Source: Leadbettera azotonutricia ZAS-9 (lineage in GTDB: Bacteria; Spirochaetota; Spirochaetia; Treponematales; Breznakiellaceae). Taken from it: a DNA stretch of 64,000 nt. Below, in pieces: positions 14,776-22,866 of the stretch (positions are counted from its first letter, which is position 1; every line of letters starts with the position of its first letter). The DNA lies in the NCBI RefSeq assembly GCF_000214355.1, contig NC_015577.1, forward strand, positions 3,215,389 to 3,279,388, read 5' to 3'. The position numbers and the translations under genes are program-made. The notes beneath the pieces were generated by a model, which worked only from the letters and a program-made list of their open reading frames with translations, was not told where the DNA came from and ran no database searches.

Positions 14776-16917
14776 TTACAGCTTAAACAGCAGATCCTCG
14801 TAACCCGGGAAGGGCCAGGCTTCCTTGGAAACCAGCTTCTCCAGGGCATCGGCCTTGGAGCGCACTCCGTCCATGGCGGGGCGGACTTTTTCGAAGTAGG
14901 CCTTGGCCTGGGCAAAGGCTTCTTCGACTCCCTGGGCTTCGGCGAGGACCGCTTCGAGTTTGCCGGTCTCTTCGTAGAGTTCGTTGGAGAGTTCGGCGAT
15001 CTTCTTGGCCCGTTTTTCCTGGGGGGCGCTCACGGCGTGAATGGCGGCGAGGGCAGAAGCGTCACGGGCAAGCTCGGCGCAGTAGGAGCTGACGGCGGGG
15101 AAGATTTCCCTCCGGGCCAGGTCGGTGGTAACGCCGGCTTCGATGTTGATCTGCTTTGAGTATTTCTCAAGGTAGATGTGATAGCGGCTCTCGGTCTCTT
15201 CTTTGGTGAGAATCTTGTGGGTCTCGAAGAGGGCGATGGTTTCGCTGCGGGTAAGAACCGTGAGGGCGTCTACGGCGTTCTTCACATTGGGGAGGCCCCT
15301 GCGTTCGGCTTCGCGCACCCATTCGTCGGTGTAGCCATTTCCGTTGAACACCACTTTGCGGTGCTTGGAATAGGATTCCTTGATGATGGCCTGGATGGTC
15401 TGGTTTACATCGGAGGCTTTTTCAAGCTTCTCCGCGTATTCGGAAAGAATCTGGGCCACTGCTGCGTTAAGGTAAGTGTTGGGAGCAGCGATGGACTGGG
15501 AAGAACCGACCATGCGGAATTCAAACTTGTTGCCCGTGAAGGCAAAGGGGCTTGTGCGGTTACGGTCGGACACGTCCTTGGGAAGCTGGGGAAGGCTCGT
15601 AACGCCGATCTTGATCTTCTGGCCTGCGGTGGATGCGCCCGACGCCTTGCCTTCGGCGATGTTGTCGAGGATTTCGGTGAGGGGGCCGCCGAAGAAAATG
15701 GACACGATGGCGGGAGGGGCCTCGTTGGCGCCCAGGCGGTGATCGTTGGCGGAGGTGGCGACAGAGGAGCGGAGCAGCAAGGCATAGCGATCAACTGCTT
15801 CTACCACCGCCGTGGCAAAGAGGAGGAAGCGGGCGTTGGACTCGGGGTTTTCGCCGGGGTCAAAAAGATTGACGCCGTCGTCGGTTGCCATGGACCAGTT
15901 GTTGTGCTTGCCGCTTCCGTTAACGCCGGCAAAGGGCTTCTCGTGGAGCAGACCTTCCATGCCGTGGCGGCGGGCAACGTTGCGAATGGTTTCCATGACG
16001 AACTGGTTGTTGTCTACCGCAGCAGTGCTGTTGGCGTAGATGGGCGCAATTTCAAACTGGTTGGGCGCGACTTCGTTGTGCTGGGTTTTGGCGGGGATTC
16101 CCACCTTCCACAGTTCGTAGTTGAGTTCCCTCATAAACACGGCGACTCGTTCTTTGATGGCGCCGAAGTAATGATCCTCCATCTCCTGGCCTTTGGCGGG
16201 GAGGACGCCGAATACGGTGCGGCCTGTGAGTATCAGGTCGGGGCGCCTGTCGTAGAAAGATTTGTCCACCAGGAAGTATTCCTGTTCCGGGCCGACCGTG
16301 GTAAAGACGCGAGTTGCAGTGGTATTACCCAGGGCCTTGAGAACCCTGACAGCCTGTTTGGAAAGGGCATCGATGGATTTGAGAAGGGGCACTTTCTCGT
16401 CCAGGGCCTGACCGTAATAGGAGATAAAAGCAGTGGGAATGGCGAGAGTGGTGCCGGTGGGGTCCTGCTTAAGGAAGGCGGGGCTCGTCACATCCCAGGC
16501 AGTATAGCCCCGGGCTTCAAAGGTAGCCCGCAGACCACCCGAGGGGAAACTGGACGCATCAGGTTCGCCCTTGATGAGTTCCTTCCCTGAAAATTCCATG
16601 ATGACTTTGCCGTCCCCTGTGGGGGCGATAAAGGAATCGTGCTTCTCTGCAGTGAGCCCGGTGAGGGGCTGGAAAATATGGGTATAGTGGGAAGCGCCCT
16701 TGGAGATGGCCCAGTCCCGCATGGCCGCAGCCACTACCTCGGCTACTTCAAGGGTCAGCTCTTTTTCGCCATTCTGAACAGTTACAATTTCCTTGTAAAT
16801 GTTTTTGGGCAAAAGCTGCCTCATAACCGCATTGGAAAAACAATTGGTACCGTACAGGTCCGCTACCGGGGTCTGGGTAAAATCGATACCCCCGCAGCAA
16901 TCTTCAGAACAGCTCAT
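14776..16917 (-). CDS. glnN: Glutamine synthetase type III
   Basis: This 713-residue enzyme makes glutamine from glutamate, ammonia and ATP. The length fits GSIII (about 700-730), against about 450 for GSI. Visible markers are GPEQEYFLVDKSFY (about 220-233), the AKTQHNEVAPNQFEIAPIY segment and the ATP-binding KPFAGVNGSGKHNNWSM region. The ATG at 16917 follows GGAGGA; a longer frame includes that ribosome site and is unlikely. Upstream lie a sigma-54 promoter (16963-16978) and two CTACA-N4-TGTAG-type dyads, so expression is probably induced under nitrogen limitation by the NifA-like regulator at 21137. A terminator follows the gene. Confidence 0.97.
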   Translation of the reverse strand: MSCSEDCCGGIDFTQTPVADLYGTNCFSNAVMRQLLPKNIYKEIVTVQNGEKELTLEVAEVVAAAMRDWAISKGASHYTHIFQPLTGLTAEKHDSFIAPTGDGKVIMEFSGKELIKGEPDASSFPSGGLRATFEARGYTAWDVTSPAFLKQDPTGTTLAIPTAFISYYGQALDEKVPLLKSIDALSKQAVRVLKALGNTTATRVFTTVGPEQEYFLVDKSFYDRRPDLILTGRTVFGVLPAKGQEMEDHYFGAIKERVAVFMRELNYELWKVGIPAKTQHNEVAPNQFEIAPIYANSTAAVDNNQFVMETIRNVARRHGMEGLLHEKPFAGVNGSGKHNNWSMATDDGVNLFDPGENPESNARFLLFATAVVEAVDRYALLLRSSVATSANDHRLGANEAPPAIVSIFFGGPLTEILDNIAEGKASGASTAGQKIKIGVTSLPQLPKDVSDRNRTSPFAFTGNKFEFRMVGSSQSIAAPNTYLNAAVAQILSEYAEKLEKASDVNQTIQAIIKESYSKHRKVVFNGNGYTDEWVREAERRGLPNVKNAVDALTVLTRSETIALFETHKILTKEETESRYHIYLEKYSKQINIEAGVTTDLARREIFPAVSSYCAELARDASALAAIHAVSAPQEKRAKKIAELSNELYEETGKLEAVLAEAQGVEEAFAQAKAYFEKVRPAMDGVRSKADALEKLVSKEAWPFPGYEDLLFKL

Positions 16918-16962
16918 AAAATCCTCCATATATTGACAGAATAAATAGTCCTACACATACTT

Positions 16963-16978
16963 AGCAAATACCGTGCCA
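16963..16978 (-). promoter_or_regulatory. Sigma-54 promoter of glnN
   Basis: On the minus strand the sequence reads TGGCAC-N5-TTGCT, an exact match to the -24/-12 consensus. TGGCAC is the complement of 16973-16978 and TTGCT of 16963-16967. The start site would be near 16953, about 36 bp before the glnN ATG. Confidence 0.9.
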
Positions 16979-17085
16979 AGACTGAAGATGGCTGCATAAT
17001 TCTCGATATATCTCGTAACTACTTATATTATAATGAATTACAAAATCAGGAGAAAATAGGAGATATTAAGAATAGTGCGATAAAG

Positions 17086-17099
17086 TTACATCCATGTAG
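17086..17099. promoter_or_regulatory. Putative enhancer site 1 of glnN (TTACA-N4-TGTAG)
   Basis: A 14-bp dyad with one deviation from CTACA-N4-TGTAG. Its centre is about 140 bp upstream of the predicted glnN start site and 29 bp from the second dyad. This position is normal for the enhancer of a sigma-54 activator. Confidence 0.65.
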
Positions 17100-17114
17100 C
17101 TTATAATAAAAAAC

Positions 17115-17128
17115 CTACAAAAATGTAG
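17115..17128. promoter_or_regulatory. Putative enhancer site 2 of glnN (CTACA-N4-TGTAG)
   Basis: A perfect 14-bp dyad centred about 169 bp upstream of the predicted glnN start. It is identical in half-sites and spacer to the sites near amt and before the NifA-like gene. Confidence 0.7.
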
Positions 17129-17343: not shown

Positions 17344-17962
17344 TGTAAACTATGGTCGAAATGACCCAACAGTCCGGTCCATGTGATCCACGAGCACGGA
17401 AAAAGATGATCCAGGTCTCCGGGATGAGATCCACCCCGGAGACCATTTTAAATCGCGAATTATTAAATGACACTCTTGCGTTTACGCATAGATTTTTCTC
17501 CCCGGATATTGACGGTATAAGAATTATGAACTGTCCGGTCGAGAATAGCGTCAGCAATGGGAACAGAGCCAATCTTTCCATGCCAGCCGCATGGTTCTAC
17601 CTGGCTTGTGAATATGGTGGAATTATTGGAACAGCGGGACTCAACTACTTCAAGAAGGTCCCGGCTTTCAGTTTCAGAAAGGGGGGTCAACAGCCATTTG
17701 TCCAGAATGAGCAGGTCGTTTTTTTTATAAACCTGTATTATTTTGGGAAACACCCCTTCGCCCCGCGCAACGGCAAGGTCATCCAGCAATTCAGGCAAGC
17801 GGATGTACTTCACGGAATAGAAACTACGGCCTATGGACGCAAGTCATATTTTAGGATGGTCGTTTTTGCTTGCGGATCACTCTCCGTATAGGTGGATCAT
17901 TTTGGGCCGGACTGCTGGATCACTTGCGCCGGATCGGTGGGTCTAAATCGCCATAGTTTACA
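17344..17962. mobile_element. IS21-family relic (internally deleted)
   Basis: Both ends carry the inverted sequence TGTAAACTATGG (17344-17355 and complement of 17951-17962). Further inverted similarity continues inward, including GACCCA, a CCGG core and a TGATCCA motif. Several GATCCA-type copies near each end resemble the multiple transposase-binding sites of IS21. Between the ends only the 3' part of istB remains; istA and the istB 5' part are missing. At 619 bp it is a non-autonomous deletion derivative. No target-site duplication is visible. Confidence 0.75.
17463..17843 (-). pseudogene. istB: istB 3' fragment (IS21 helper ATPase)
   Basis: The frame reads LASIGRSFYSVKYIRLPELLDDL... and contains LLILDKWLLTPLSETESRDLLEVVE, IADAILDRTVHNSY and a basic C-terminus ending MRKRKSVI. 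These are standard landmarks of the C-terminal half of IstB, which binds ATP and directs IS21 transposition. A TGA precedes LASIG, and the Walker A half is missing. Asp/Glu of Walker B is changed to ILDKW where intact proteins have ILDEW. The fragment is therefore unlikely to be functional. Confidence 0.85.
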
Positions 17963-18278: not shown

Positions 18279-18821
18279 TTAGAATGCATATCCCATGCCG
18301 AAGGCAACAACAAAATTGACTCCAACTTTAAACTCGCCATTTCCCGCGTATGTAAATCCCGATGTAGAATAGTCTTTTTTACCGAGAACTATGGGAATAC
18401 CTATTTTCGGTTCAATAAAGAAACCGCCGGGACTTCCTACGTCAATTTTCCAGCCAATACCCGGATCAACTAAAAATCCGCTGGTTGAATATACCCAGGA
18501 ATATGTATACCCACCAGCGTCAACATCTTCAGTGCCTGTTATTGTTCCAAATCCTAAACCGAGTTTAGCATAAAAAACACCCTTAAAAGGATAAAATTTT
18601 GCGTTTGCTTCTACTGCAAAACTGTTCCAAAAAAAGAAAAGTGAATTGTAGTATACTTCACCCCCGACTGAAATTGAAGGCGTAAGAACCCTTTCATATC
18701 CAACACCAGCACCGAGTAGGCCGATTTGCCCGGAAATCCAATTGTTTTGCGCACTCGCAGTGCCTACACCCATAACTGCCAGCAACACGCTGAGCATGAT
18801 GATAAACTTGTAGTTTTTCAT
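18279..18821 (-). CDS. Small outer-membrane beta-barrel-like protein
   Basis: This 180-residue protein has a signal peptide (MKNYKFIIMLSVLLAVMGVGTASA-QNN). It then has alternating glycine- and aromatic-rich strands such as GQIGLLGAGVGYERVL and YAKLGLGFGTITG, and ends in MGYAF with a terminal Phe, as outer-membrane barrels do. It resembles the OmpA/OprF-like small barrel families without a recognisable peptidoglycan domain. It has its own promoter and terminator and is a single-gene unit. No enzymatic role is apparent; a structural or porin-like role is inferred. Confidence 0.75.
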   Translation of the reverse strand: MKNYKFIIMLSVLLAVMGVGTASAQNNWISGQIGLLGAGVGYERVLTPSISVGGEVYYNSLFFFWNSFAVEANAKFYPFKGVFYAKLGLGFGTITGTEDVDAGGYTYSWVYSTSGFLVDPGIGWKIDVGSPGGFFIEPKIGIPIVLGKKDYSTSGFTYAGNGEFKVGVNFVVAFGMGYAF

Positions 18822-19158: not shown

Positions 19159-19500
19159 TTAACCGATAGCTGCTGAGCCGGTTTCACCGGTTCTGATTCG
19201 TATGCACTCCTCGACGGGTAGTACGAAGATTTTTCCATCCCCGATTTCCCCGCTGCGGGCGCCCCGGATAATGGCATCGATGGTGGGTTTGACAAAGTTG
19301 TCATTCACCGCGATTTCGATGCGTACCTTTTTAAGAAGGTTAACTTCCAATTCTACGCCCCGGTACTGTTCGGTATAACCCTTCTGCTGTCCGCAGCCCA
19401 TAGCATTGGTTACTGAAATCTTGAAAACTTCAGCCTTAAAAAGTTCCTGTTTTACCTCATTCAGCATATGAGGCTGTACGTACGCAATAATTAATTTCAT
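19159..19500 (-). CDS. glnK: PII nitrogen regulatory protein (GlnB/GlnK type)
   Basis: This 113-residue protein is the trimeric PII signal sensor that binds ATP/ADP and 2-oxoglutarate. It typically plugs the Amt channel when nitrogen is plentiful. The T-loop core [11 protein letters not shown] is at residues 41-51, and the C-terminal signature [20 protein letters not shown] is present. Position 51, the uridylylated Tyr in enterobacterial PII, is Leu here, while Tyr46 is kept. Control by uridylylation at the usual site is therefore not possible. The gene is 12 bp downstream of amt and shares its sigma-54 promoter; the linkage favours the GlnK name. Confidence 0.95.
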
Positions 19501-19512
19501 TCTTCTGCCTCC

Positions 19513-20874
19513 TTACATGTTGCTGAAGATCTGGAAGCCCGTGTAGGCTTCTGATTTGTGTTCGGAAAGGTCAAGACCTACCATTTCTTCCTTGGGGCTG
19601 ACCCTGAGACCGACAACGGCCTTGATTGCCAAGAAGAGGATGAGGCTTGTGATAGCTGCCCATGCGCCGACAGATACAACGCCTACTGCCTGAATACCAA
19701 GCTGGGCAAAACCGCCGCCATGGAGAATGCCGACAACGCCGTCATCAGGAGCATTTGCCCAGATACCTACAGCCAAGGTTCCGAAAATACCGCACACAAG
19801 GTGGACTGAGGCAGCGCCAACCGGGTCGTCTATCTTGAGTACCTTGTCGATGAACTCAACAGCCAGCACAACCAGCACGCCGCCGATAAGGCCGATGATG
19901 ATGGAAGCGCCAGGGCTTACAACCGCGCAAGGGGCGGTGATGGCCACGAGACCTGCAAGCAGACCGTTGAGGGTCATGGAGCAGTCGGGCTTTTTGAACC
20001 ATATCCAGGAGAAGACGAGAGCGCCAACTGCGCCGGCAGAAGCAGCCAGACAGGTAGTTACTGCAACCCGGGCGATGTTAAGACCGCTCCAGATACCGCC
20101 TTCGCCGATAGTGGCAATGCCGGTGGACGCGCCGTTAAATCCGAACCATCCGAAGAACAGCAAGAGCACACCCAAAGCCGCATAAGGGATGTTATGCCCG
20201 GGGAATGCCTTGACCGTTACCGTACCGTCAGCGCCTTTCACGTATTTTCCAATACGGGGGCCGAGAACCGCAGCGCCCATAAGAGCCGCCCAACCGCCCA
20301 CAGAGTGGACAACAGTGGAACCGGCAAAATCATGGAAGCCCAGATTGGCGAGCCAGCCGCCGCCCCAGACCCAGTGGCCCGAGATGGGGTAGATGAAGGC
20401 GGAAATAAAACAGGTGTAGATCAGATAGGACTTGAACTTGGTCCTTTCAGCCATAGCGCCCGAAACAATGGTAGCGGCAGTAGCGGCAAACACAACCTGG
20501 AAGAACCAGGATTTGTAGAAATTCCCGCTTTCCATATCCAGAAGCATTGGGCCGTTGAAGAACTGATCGGTACCAATGAGTCCTCCCGCAGAAGTCCCGT
20601 ACATGAAACCCCAGCCAACAGCCCAGTACACAATGGCTCCAAAACAGAAATCCATCACGTTTTTCATGGTGATATTGGTGGCATTTTTTGCACGAGTCAA
20701 ACCGGTCTCAACCAAGGCAAAACCAGCCTGCATAATAAAGACCAGAATGGACCCGATAAAGAGCCAAACTACATCCAGGGAAAACCCCAGAGTTTCAAGG
20801 GTCTCCTGGGCAAAGAGGGCGGCAACGCCCCCAACCCCAAGAAGCACAGCTACAATAAGCAATTTTTTTCGCAC
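19513..20874 (-). CDS. amt: Ammonium transporter Amt
   Basis: This 453-residue protein has a cleavable signal-like start (MRKKLLIVAVLLGVGGVAALFAQ) and then eleven hydrophobic segments. Amt landmarks include DVVWLFIGSILVFIMQAGFALVETG, the helix with HWVWGGGWL and FAGSTVVHSVGGW, and GLVAITAPCAVVSPGAS. The pore histidines appear in STVVHSVGG and in the later ILHGGGF segment. The start codon is GTG, supported by GGAGGA seven bases upstream. It is first in an operon with PII and has a sigma-54 promoter at 20911-20926 and paired dyads upstream. It imports ammonium under nitrogen limitation. Confidence 0.96.
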   Translation of the reverse strand: MRKKLLIVAVLLGVGGVAALFAQETLETLGFSLDVVWLFIGSILVFIMQAGFALVETGLTRAKNATNITMKNVMDFCFGAIVYWAVGWGFMYGTSAGGLIGTDQFFNGPMLLDMESGNFYKSWFFQVVFAATAATIVSGAMAERTKFKSYLIYTCFISAFIYPISGHWVWGGGWLANLGFHDFAGSTVVHSVGGWAALMGAAVLGPRIGKYVKGADGTVTVKAFPGHNIPYAALGVLLLFFGWFGFNGASTGIATIGEGGIWSGLNIARVAVTTCLAASAGAVGALVFSWIWFKKPDCSMTLNGLLAGLVAITAPCAVVSPGASIIIGLIGGVLVVLAVEFIDKVLKIDDPVGAASVHLVCGIFGTLAVGIWANAPDDGVVGILHGGGFAQLGIQAVGVVSVGAWAAITSLILFLAIKAVVGLRVSPKEEMVGLDLSEHKSEAYTGFQIFSNM

Positions 20875-20910: not shown

Positions 20911-20926
20911 AGCAAAAATCGTGCCA
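20911..20926 (-). promoter_or_regulatory. Sigma-54 promoter of amt-glnK
   Basis: On the minus strand TGGCAC-N5-TTGCT matches the -24/-12 consensus exactly. TGGCAC is the complement of 20921-20926 and TTGCT of 20911-20915. The start site would be near 20901, 27 bp before the GTG of amt. Confidence 0.9.
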
Positions 20927-21106: not shown

Positions 21107-21120
21107 CTACAATTATGTAG
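21107..21120. promoter_or_regulatory. Putative enhancer site 1 of amt (CTACA-N4-TGTAG)
   Basis: A perfect 14-bp dyad, extended by matching A/T bases on both sides (TTT...AAA). Its centre is about 212 bp upstream of the predicted amt start and 30 bp from the second copy. Confidence 0.7.
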
Positions 21121-21136
21121 AAATGGGGGAAATATC

Positions 21137-21150
21137 CTACATTCTTGTAG
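21137..21150. promoter_or_regulatory. Putative enhancer site 2 of amt, overlapping the regulator stop codon
   Basis: A perfect CTACA-N4-TGTAG dyad whose first three bases are the complement of the TAG stop of the NifA-like gene. The site thus encodes the last codons of that protein. It lies about 242 bp upstream of the predicted amt start. Confidence 0.7.
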
Positions 21151-22735: not shown

Positions 22736-22749
22736 CTACATTTTTGTAG
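22736..22749. promoter_or_regulatory. CTACA-N4-TGTAG dyad just upstream of the NifA-like gene
   Basis: A perfect 14-bp dyad only 12 bp before the regulator's start codon. Its half-sites and spacer are the same as those near glnN and amt. At this position binding would be expected to repress, so negative autoregulation is inferred. Confidence 0.65.
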
Positions 22750-22792: not shown

Positions 22793-22866
22793 GCGACACT
22801 AGCTCATCCGGATAGAGCAACGGCCTTCTAAGCCGTAGGTGGGCCGTTCGAGTCGGCCGTGTCGCA
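22793..22866 (+). tRNA. tRNA-Arg (anticodon UCU)
   Basis: This 74-nt cloverleaf has acceptor stem GCGACAC/GTGTCGC and discriminator A. The anticodon stem ACGGC/GCCGT has loop CTTCTAA, so the anticodon is TCT. The T-arm contains GTTCGAGTC. CCA is not encoded. A 10-bp hairpin GGATTTTCCC/GGGAAAATCC follows at 22869-22890. A related GGGAAAATCTGTGG copy precedes the tRNA near 22762. Confidence 0.95.

Follow-up and report, generated by a model that had tools for sequence, protein, structure and literature searches.

The window analysed here, 64,000 bases at positions 3215389-3279388 of a single-contig genome of 3,855,671 bases, carries one pair of CTACA-N4-TGTAG dyads upstream of the sigma-54 promoter of glnN, a second pair upstream of the sigma-54 promoter of amtB-glnK and, adjacent to them, the gene of a NifA/AnfA-like activator (ACT, encoded by act). 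We suggest, with a probability of about 85%, that the paired dyads are the enhancer for ACT and are used at nitrogen shortage. The arrangement appears to be related to a site known from nitrogenase control, though with another function, and it recurs in other spirochetes and some other phyla.

Results

Gene order, promoters and dyads in the window

From the right, the order on the minus strand is ACT, amtB, glnK, an unmatched ORF, an IS21 IstB fragment and glnN. The features are:

14776-16929, minus strand: glnN, type III glutamine synthetase, 717 amino acids, target (Pfam GSIII_N 3.9e-74, Gln-synt_C-ter 7.1e-42)
16963-16978, minus strand: glnN sigma-54 promoter TGGCACGGTATTTGCT, exact consensus match
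17086-17099: glnN promoter-proximal dyad TTACATCCATGTAG, 9/10 consensus positions
17115-17128: glnN promoter-distal dyad CTACAAAAATGTAG, 10/10, 29 bp from the proximal dyad
18279-18821, minus strand: ORF between glnK and the IS21 fragment, no match in the Pfam scan
19159-19500, minus strand: glnK, PII protein, 113 amino acids (Pfam P-II 3.9e-25)
19513-20874, minus strand: amtB, ammonium transporter, second target operon amtB-glnK (Pfam PF00909 4e-123; TIGR00836 above cut-off)
20911-20926, minus strand: amtB-glnK sigma-54 promoter TGGCACGATTTTTGCT, exact consensus match
21107-21120: amtB promoter-proximal dyad CTACAATTATGTAG, 10/10 consensus positions
21137-21150: amtB promoter-distal dyad CTACATTCTTGTAG, 10/10, 30 bp from the proximal dyad, holding the act TAG stop codon
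21137-22723, minus strand: act, activator of 528 amino acids, GAF, sigma-54-interacting AAA+ and Fis-type HTH domains (Pfam, NCBIfam)
22736-22749: act single dyad CTACATTTTTGTAG, 10/10, 12 bp before the act start codon, probable autoregulatory operator

The IS21 IstB-type gene fragment (17463-17813, minus strand) separates the glnN enhancer candidate from the neighbouring genes, and a tRNA-Arg(TCT) gene (22793-22866) lies shortly upstream of the act operator candidate.

As the earlier note had read, the glnN promoter is an exact TGGCAC-N5-TTGCT match, and its two dyads are separated by 29 bp. They start 121 and 150 bp upstream of the first T of the -24 element, and the 140-170 bp given in that note fits a count from an assumed start site. 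The amtB-glnK dyad pair and the single act dyad had gone unmentioned there.

The TAC-N6-GTA cores lie at 17087 and 17116 (glnN) and at 21108 and 21138 (amtB). TACA-N4-TGTA occurs five times in the window, with 0.28 expected, and all five occurrences are the glnN, amtB and act dyads; none of 100 shuffles of the window reached five. The sigma-54 promoter pattern with at most one mismatch gives four sites in the window against 2.7 expected, so that a promoter match alone is weak evidence.

Specificity within the genome

CTACA-N4-TGTAG was found at five sites in the 3.86-Mb genome, four of them inside this 6-kb cluster, and the reversed pattern at one. The fifth lies within a 1049-codon ORF (RND-type by eye), 2.5 kb from the nearest sigma-54 site, and was taken as a chance occurrence. 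The shorter TACA-N4-TGTA occupies 37 places genome-wide versus 22 for its reversed pattern, and the half-sites alone are therefore unspecific.

The genome-wide pair search proposed in the earlier note returned pairs upstream of sigma-54 promoters at glnN and amtB only. Exact TACA/TGTA-core pairs 26-34 bp apart are confined to these two places in the genome, and full-consensus pairs (at most 3 mismatches in 20) occur genome-wide at 30 bp only before amtB and at 29 bp only before glnN. Exact TGGCAC-N5-TTGC sites number 14 (reversed pattern, 5), and within 450 bp upstream a dyad of at least 9/10 accompanies only those of glnN and amtB. The full motif and its pairs are thus not scattered through the genome without a link to sigma-54 promoters, the outcome that had been named as speaking against the proposal.

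Target promoters and spacing in activator-selected loci

Because selection by motif was to be avoided, comparison loci were picked by their ACT match, giving 58 stretches from 88 rows of other genomes, mostly the best-scoring, with the window excluded. Two motif-chosen loci (L244, L245) were left out of the target-promoter, sigma-54, act-upstream, stop-codon and letter-order counts, and six nif-side or off-clade loci (L231, L232, L236, L238, L240, L241) out of the act-upstream and stop-codon counts; L214, L220, L226 and L230 were kept in the counts though they group with the nif side in the tree described below.

In the 58 loci TACA-N4-TGTA has 80 sites, compared with 1-14 for 11 other letter orders, and forms 13 pairs at 28-32 bp where the other orders form none. 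TAC-N6-GTA gives 24 pairs (0-1 for other letter orders), and as a single site it is not enriched in these loci (185 versus 44-233 for five other letter orders).

Of 43 regions preceding amtB or glnN, two of them from the window, 28 contain a pair scoring 16/20 or more; such pairs turned up in 3.3% of 860 random windows drawn from these loci, part of which overlap real sites, and in 0.4% of 1247 region-permutation trials using 29 permuted consensuses. In the spacing scan of the amtB and glnN regions the maximum lies at 30 bp (20 regions). Of the 31 regions whose pair scores 15 or more, 29 have a sigma-54 element of 9/11 or better between pair and gene (3.7% in random windows), and in these 29 it sits 65-191 bp from the pair end. 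The remaining 12 of the 43 regions score below 15/20, and seven of them nonetheless have the element, so a sigma-54 promoter is not always accompanied by a recognisable pair. Three of the low-scoring loci (L187, L191, L192) have a perfect dyad whose end coincides with the act stop codon, and amtB starts 500-900 bases off. At L048:1661-2215 and L049:902-1417 an extra ORF (MRKPRQL..., transposase-like by eye) separates the putative act stop-codon enhancer from amtB.

Dyads at the two ends of act

When positions are counted from the act stop codon, dyads scoring 8/10 or better fall at offset -11 in 21 of 53 loci and at +19 in 14 of 53 (window included); the two offsets are exactly 30 bp apart, and each remaining offset is represented by one or two loci. 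At offset -11 the final three bases of the dyad are the act stop codon (TAG in 19 of 21, TAA in two), the dyad at 21137-21150 being the case in this window, so that the end of the activator gene is part of the predicted enhancer of the following operon. This would account for the C-terminal Met of many ACT proteins. An enhancer that encodes a stop codon is an unusual constraint, and one that families far apart in the phylum share.

Of the 52 loci with enough sequence, 23 have a dyad scoring 9/10 or better in the 150 bp before act (0.2% for permuted consensuses), and 18 of these 23 dyads start 23-36 bp before the act start codon, the start being chosen by homology. The single dyad before act is probably an autoregulatory operator; since it is so near the gene, repression by ACT would be the simplest reading.

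Distribution across the phylum

We searched 392 genomes of the group around this genome, taken as Spirochaetota. Pairs with exact TACA/TGTA cores 26-34 bp apart were detected in 31 genomes, against two for the reversed control. The spacing is exactly 30 bp in 22 and 29 bp in four of the 30 pair loci returned. According to tblastn and Pfam, 23 of these 30 adjoin a gene for AmtB, glutamine synthetase, NifH or ACT, and seven have no such neighbour (L036, L038, L052, L056, L057, L061, L063).

At E<=1e-125, a threshold that admits nif-side relatives, 81 of the 392 genomes have an ACT homologue. Pair and ACT occur together in 25 genomes, that is, in 25 of the 31 with a pair (Fisher p 7.4e-14, and 2.9e-13 minus the own genome). 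The strict pattern finds no exact pair in 56 of the 81 ACT genomes, and six of the 31 pair genomes lack ACT at the threshold, among them G139 with an ACT fragment at a contig edge (L064). Together with the target promoters, this co-distribution lends comparative support to the earlier suggestion that a sigma-54 promoter with a paired activator dyad is served here by the protein encoded at 21137.

The activator, its family and its paralogues

ACT combines an AAA+ sigma-54 interaction domain (PF00158, 7.3e-74), with the GAFTGA loop, and a Fis-type HTH (PF02954, 1.5e-8), as sigma-54 enhancer-binding proteins do, the loop having been an entry requirement of the listing in which ACT appeared; a -24/-12 promoter lies downstream of the putative enhancer at both glnN and amtB, exact in each case. 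Among the named loci its closest relatives are from Treponema sp. and Gracilinema caldarium (73-82% identity), which points to a treponeme-like spirochete as the source.

The best NCBIfam model for ACT is NifA (TIGR01817), with which it shares GAF, AAA+ and HTH domains, at 502.8 bits and below the curated cut-off of 528.85; the recognition helix reads TERQMGLR in ACT versus TPRQIAYR in Rahnella NifA. The NifA site TGT-N10-ACA is absent upstream of glnN, amtB and act. NtrC is marked by a receiver domain, and the Pfam matches of ACT contain none, with GAF instead. The NtrC site has a TGCAC-N5-GGTGCA-like consensus, to which the closest sequences show 4 of 11 mismatches before glnN and before act and 2 of 11 before amtB. 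The pattern search of the upstream regions thus rejects the classical NifA and NtrC sites as the identity of the dyad, in agreement with the earlier note.

ACT has the GAF-AAA-HTH architecture of AnfA/VnfA-type activators (Pfam), and paired TAC-N6-GTA dyads upstream of a sigma-54 promoter are likewise present. Its cysteines are only at 124, 270 and 436, and in this it differs from AnfA, lacking the N-terminal cysteine pair or GAF cysteine motif of AnfA/VnfA; the nif-side paralogue has Cys 15 and 22. The genes linked to ACT are glnN and amtB-glnK rather than those of an alternative nitrogenase, and the best match to nifH is found at another place in the genome, next to an activator of its own.

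The tree of 55 rows has nif-linked relatives as its only references, and some chosen loci (e.g., L246, L151, L152) are absent from it because their frames did not pass a filter. It contains a group of 18 (99/99), made up of nine nif-linked spirochete or Chlorobi relatives and nine unlabelled rows, and most spirochete ACT proteins fall into a separate group of 28 with weaker support (81/87); two proteobacterial NifA rows stand apart on long branches under the midpoint root. The search for reference VnfA or AnfA on plasmids returned, among the matches listed, only NifA and other or unnamed regulators. The TAC-N6-GTA core is common to the ACT and nif-side branches; the targets differ, and in this genome so does the spacing.

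The genome encodes six strong (E<=2.1e-70) and four weak matches to the sigma-54 activator domain, and the main binder of the dyads might be another of these, such as the nifH-side AnfA/NifA-like paralogue or one of the NtrC-type response regulators, or else another sigma-54 activator of the genome; we consider this improbable. The paralogue, which lies next to nifH in divergent orientation, shares 47% identity with ACT and resembles it in the recognition helix; its intergenic region (L147:7456-7676, C1:2967455-2967675) carries a near-consensus sigma-54 promoter TGGCACGCTTTATGCT and the TAC-N6-GTR dyads CTACATCCATGTGG and TACACAAAAGTAG, 21 bp apart; cross-binding is possible because the HTH is related and the sites have the same core. 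The spacing of 21 bp, not 30, argues against the paralogue as the binder at glnN and amtB. The co-occurrence of the pair with ACT in 25/31 genomes, the position that the pair has in many loci, at the act 3' end or in the gap to the adjacent gene, and the presence of a dyad of at least 9/10 only at amtB and glnN among the 14 exact sigma-54 sites point to ACT rather than to another activator.

Pairs in other phyla and in Clostridia

The scan for perfect pairs at 28-32 bp covered one genome per species for 84,980 species and returned 64 stretches in 62 genomes. In 28 of the 64 the pair is directly upstream of a nitrogen gene (tblastn, Pfam and positions): ten amtB, five GSIII, five GSI, five nifH, one asnB, one PII and one nifB-like gene. 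In another arrangement (L100) the pair is followed by one gene of unknown kind and then by amtB-glnK. According to the record titles, the nitrogen-gene pairs come from Spirochaetes, Planctomycetes, Bacteroidota, Chlorobi, Deltaproteobacteria, Acidobacteria and Margulisiibacteriota.

In the first batch 36 of 49 genomes have a long ACT homologue (E<=1e-117), in the second none of 14. Kutzneria, which has no ACT homologue, is in both batches, and the second otherwise consists of 13 clostridial genomes. The two Kutzneria loci (L073, L117) have perfect pairs, one of them 46 bp before an FTR1-family iron permease gene.

Thirteen clostridial loci (L065, L066, L067, L070, L072, L079, L086, L088, L090, L102, L113, L116, L123) have perfect CTACA-N4-TGTAG pairs at 29 bp. 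The ACT query matched none of the 13 clostridial genomes of the second batch, nor G392, G408 or G426 in the first, where it matched 37 of 49 genomes. Pfam places two M56/BlaR1 peptidases and one penicillinase repressor at three of these loci (L067, L086, L102), the others having been judged by eye. The clostridial pairs were set apart as those of a separate BlaI/BlaR1-type system with a different regulator, a shared half-site and near-equal spacing; because they adjoin BlaR1-type or penicillinase-repressor genes, the motif alone is no proof of an enhancer.

These 29-bp pairs near BlaR1-type M56 peptidase or penicillinase-repressor genes are what would favour reading the dyads of our window as operators of a BlaI/MecI-type repressor, or of an unrelated TACA/TGTA regulator, with no sigma-54 role. 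We regard it as very improbable, since the clostridial pairs occur without ACT and the pairs of the ACT loci stand upstream of sigma-54 promoters of nitrogen genes. That the dyads are chance inverted repeats by a true sigma-54 promoter, which the promoter count near expectation and the yield of some dyads from AT-rich intergenic DNA might suggest, has a negligible probability and is rejected, as far as sequence statistics reach, by permuted and reversed controls near zero and by a real motif that is both paired and phased.

GlnK and the nitrogen signal

Residue 51 of GlnK (19159-19500) is Leu, where uridylylated PII proteins have Tyr, and Tyr was found in one of 30 GlnK proteins from related loci (aligned by position, with one row shifted). 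No GlnD was detected over the cut-off in the genome, which has two weak matches. A uridylylation switch is therefore unlikely here. In R. palustris, deuridylylated PII inhibits AnfA, apparently via the GAF domain (PMC12093980, available excerpt). By analogy with that work and from the gene order, a link between GlnK and ACT may be inferred, and a direct, effector-dependent GlnK-ACT contact is a plausible route for the signal.

Discussion

Relation to known systems

The literature is cited here from the available portions of each source. In R. capsulatus, AnfA binds in vitro to two TAC-N6-GTA sites that drive anfH, and both dyads are required for full expression (PMC7294313). Like ACT, this AnfA is a GAF-AAA-HTH protein with two TAC-N6-GTA dyads upstream of a sigma-54 promoter, and its target is anfHDGK, whereas the predicted ACT targets are amtB-glnK and glnN (PMC7294313). 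The sites described here differ from those of AnfA in the longer consensus CTACA-N4-TGTAG, the spacing of about 30 bp and the single dyad before the activator gene. For VnfA of A. vinelandii, ChIP-seq gave two GT(T/A)C-N6-GTAC sites with similar spacing at most target promoters (PMC9542535). GTAC-N6-GTAC contains the TAC-N6-GTA core, as the present dyads do (PMC9542535, PMC7294313); the flanks are G/C in the vanadium nitrogenase regulon of VnfA and C/G here (PMC9542535). Exact GTAC-N6-GTAC is absent from the three upstream regions (glnN, amtB, act). The suggestion that the dyad may define a new recognition motif finds no support in that form: C-TAC-N6-GTA-G is the AnfA consensus core in pairs (PMC7294313), VnfA shares that core (PMC9542535), and a wholly new recognition code is rejected on the available AnfA and VnfA literature.

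At nif operons of Desulfovibrionales, Kazakov et al. predicted the binding motif of DVUA0143, a protein of the AnfA/VnfA-like kind (PMC4641369). In D. vulgaris RCH1 we found CTACAAAAATGTAG upstream of nifH, and a second dyad (8/10) begins 18 bp away. The regulator of Desulfovibrio vulgaris is an AnfA/VnfA-like activator too, but its regulon, in the available part of the source, is the nitrogenase operon only (PMC4641369). Among spirochetes, the Leptospira EbpA-RpoN-amtB system has a sigma-54 activator acting on amtB under nitrogen limitation; its description as an FhlA-like protein that has two GAF domains sets EbpA apart from ACT (PMC12655853, available text). A 2011 survey, in the portion available, reported VnfA-type activators from 11 phyla or classes and treated them as nitrogenase regulators (PMC3162934), and a 2025 survey, likewise in part, assigned sigma-54-dependent regulation of glutamine synthetase mainly to Pseudomonadota (PMC12316311).

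In the open-licence literature we found no report of the motif at amtB, glnK or glutamine synthetase genes and, Leptospira aside, no description of amtB, glnK or glutamine synthetase activation in spirochetes. The ammonium-assimilation regulon, the wide conservation at about 30-bp spacing, the apparent autoregulatory site and the stop-codon enhancer are new.

Proposed mechanism and physiological role

We propose that ACT dimers bind the CTACA-N4-TGTAG dyads about 30 bp apart, just under three helical turns, with the proximal end of the pair about 65-190 bp upstream of the -24/-12 promoter. Dimers on the paired dyads would bind cooperatively and assemble into the AAA+ hexamer, which, under nitrogen shortage, would open the sigma-54 polymerase at the glnN and amtB-glnK promoters; we infer both the cooperativity and the sigma-54 dependence. 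Through the single dyad near its start, act would be controlled by its own product, repression being the likeliest mode. GlnK is the probable carrier of the signal and would act on the GAF domain of ACT via bound effectors, not by uridylylation.

The results suggest that an alternative-nitrogenase binding site is used for everyday ammonium assimilation in other phyla. Since the site would serve ammonium assimilation, a predicted NifA or AnfA in such genomes is by itself no evidence of nitrogen fixation. The proposal amounts to a concrete, testable regulon in which a single activator would act through a single motif on two target operons and, at an apparent feedback site, on its own gene.

A broader view, which we offer tentatively and hold to be rather doubtful, is that the ACT-type activator with paired CTACA-N4-TGTAG is an ancestral ammonium-assimilation regulator of Spirochaetota and several other phyla, doing the job of NtrC without a phosphorelay or PII uridylylation; AnfA, VnfA and the nif activators that read TAC-N6-GTA would then be later specialisations.

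Other sigma-54 promoters of the genome

At L026:1501-2406 (near C1:962480) an exact sigma-54 promoter TGGCACGAAAATTGCT starts 49 bp before a gene for a sigma-70-family sigma factor, an arrangement that recalls the Borrelia RpoN-RpoS cascade. Two near-identical loci, L022 (C1:595136) and L028 (C1:1769226), share an exact sigma-54 promoter before a lipoprotein-like gene (by eye).
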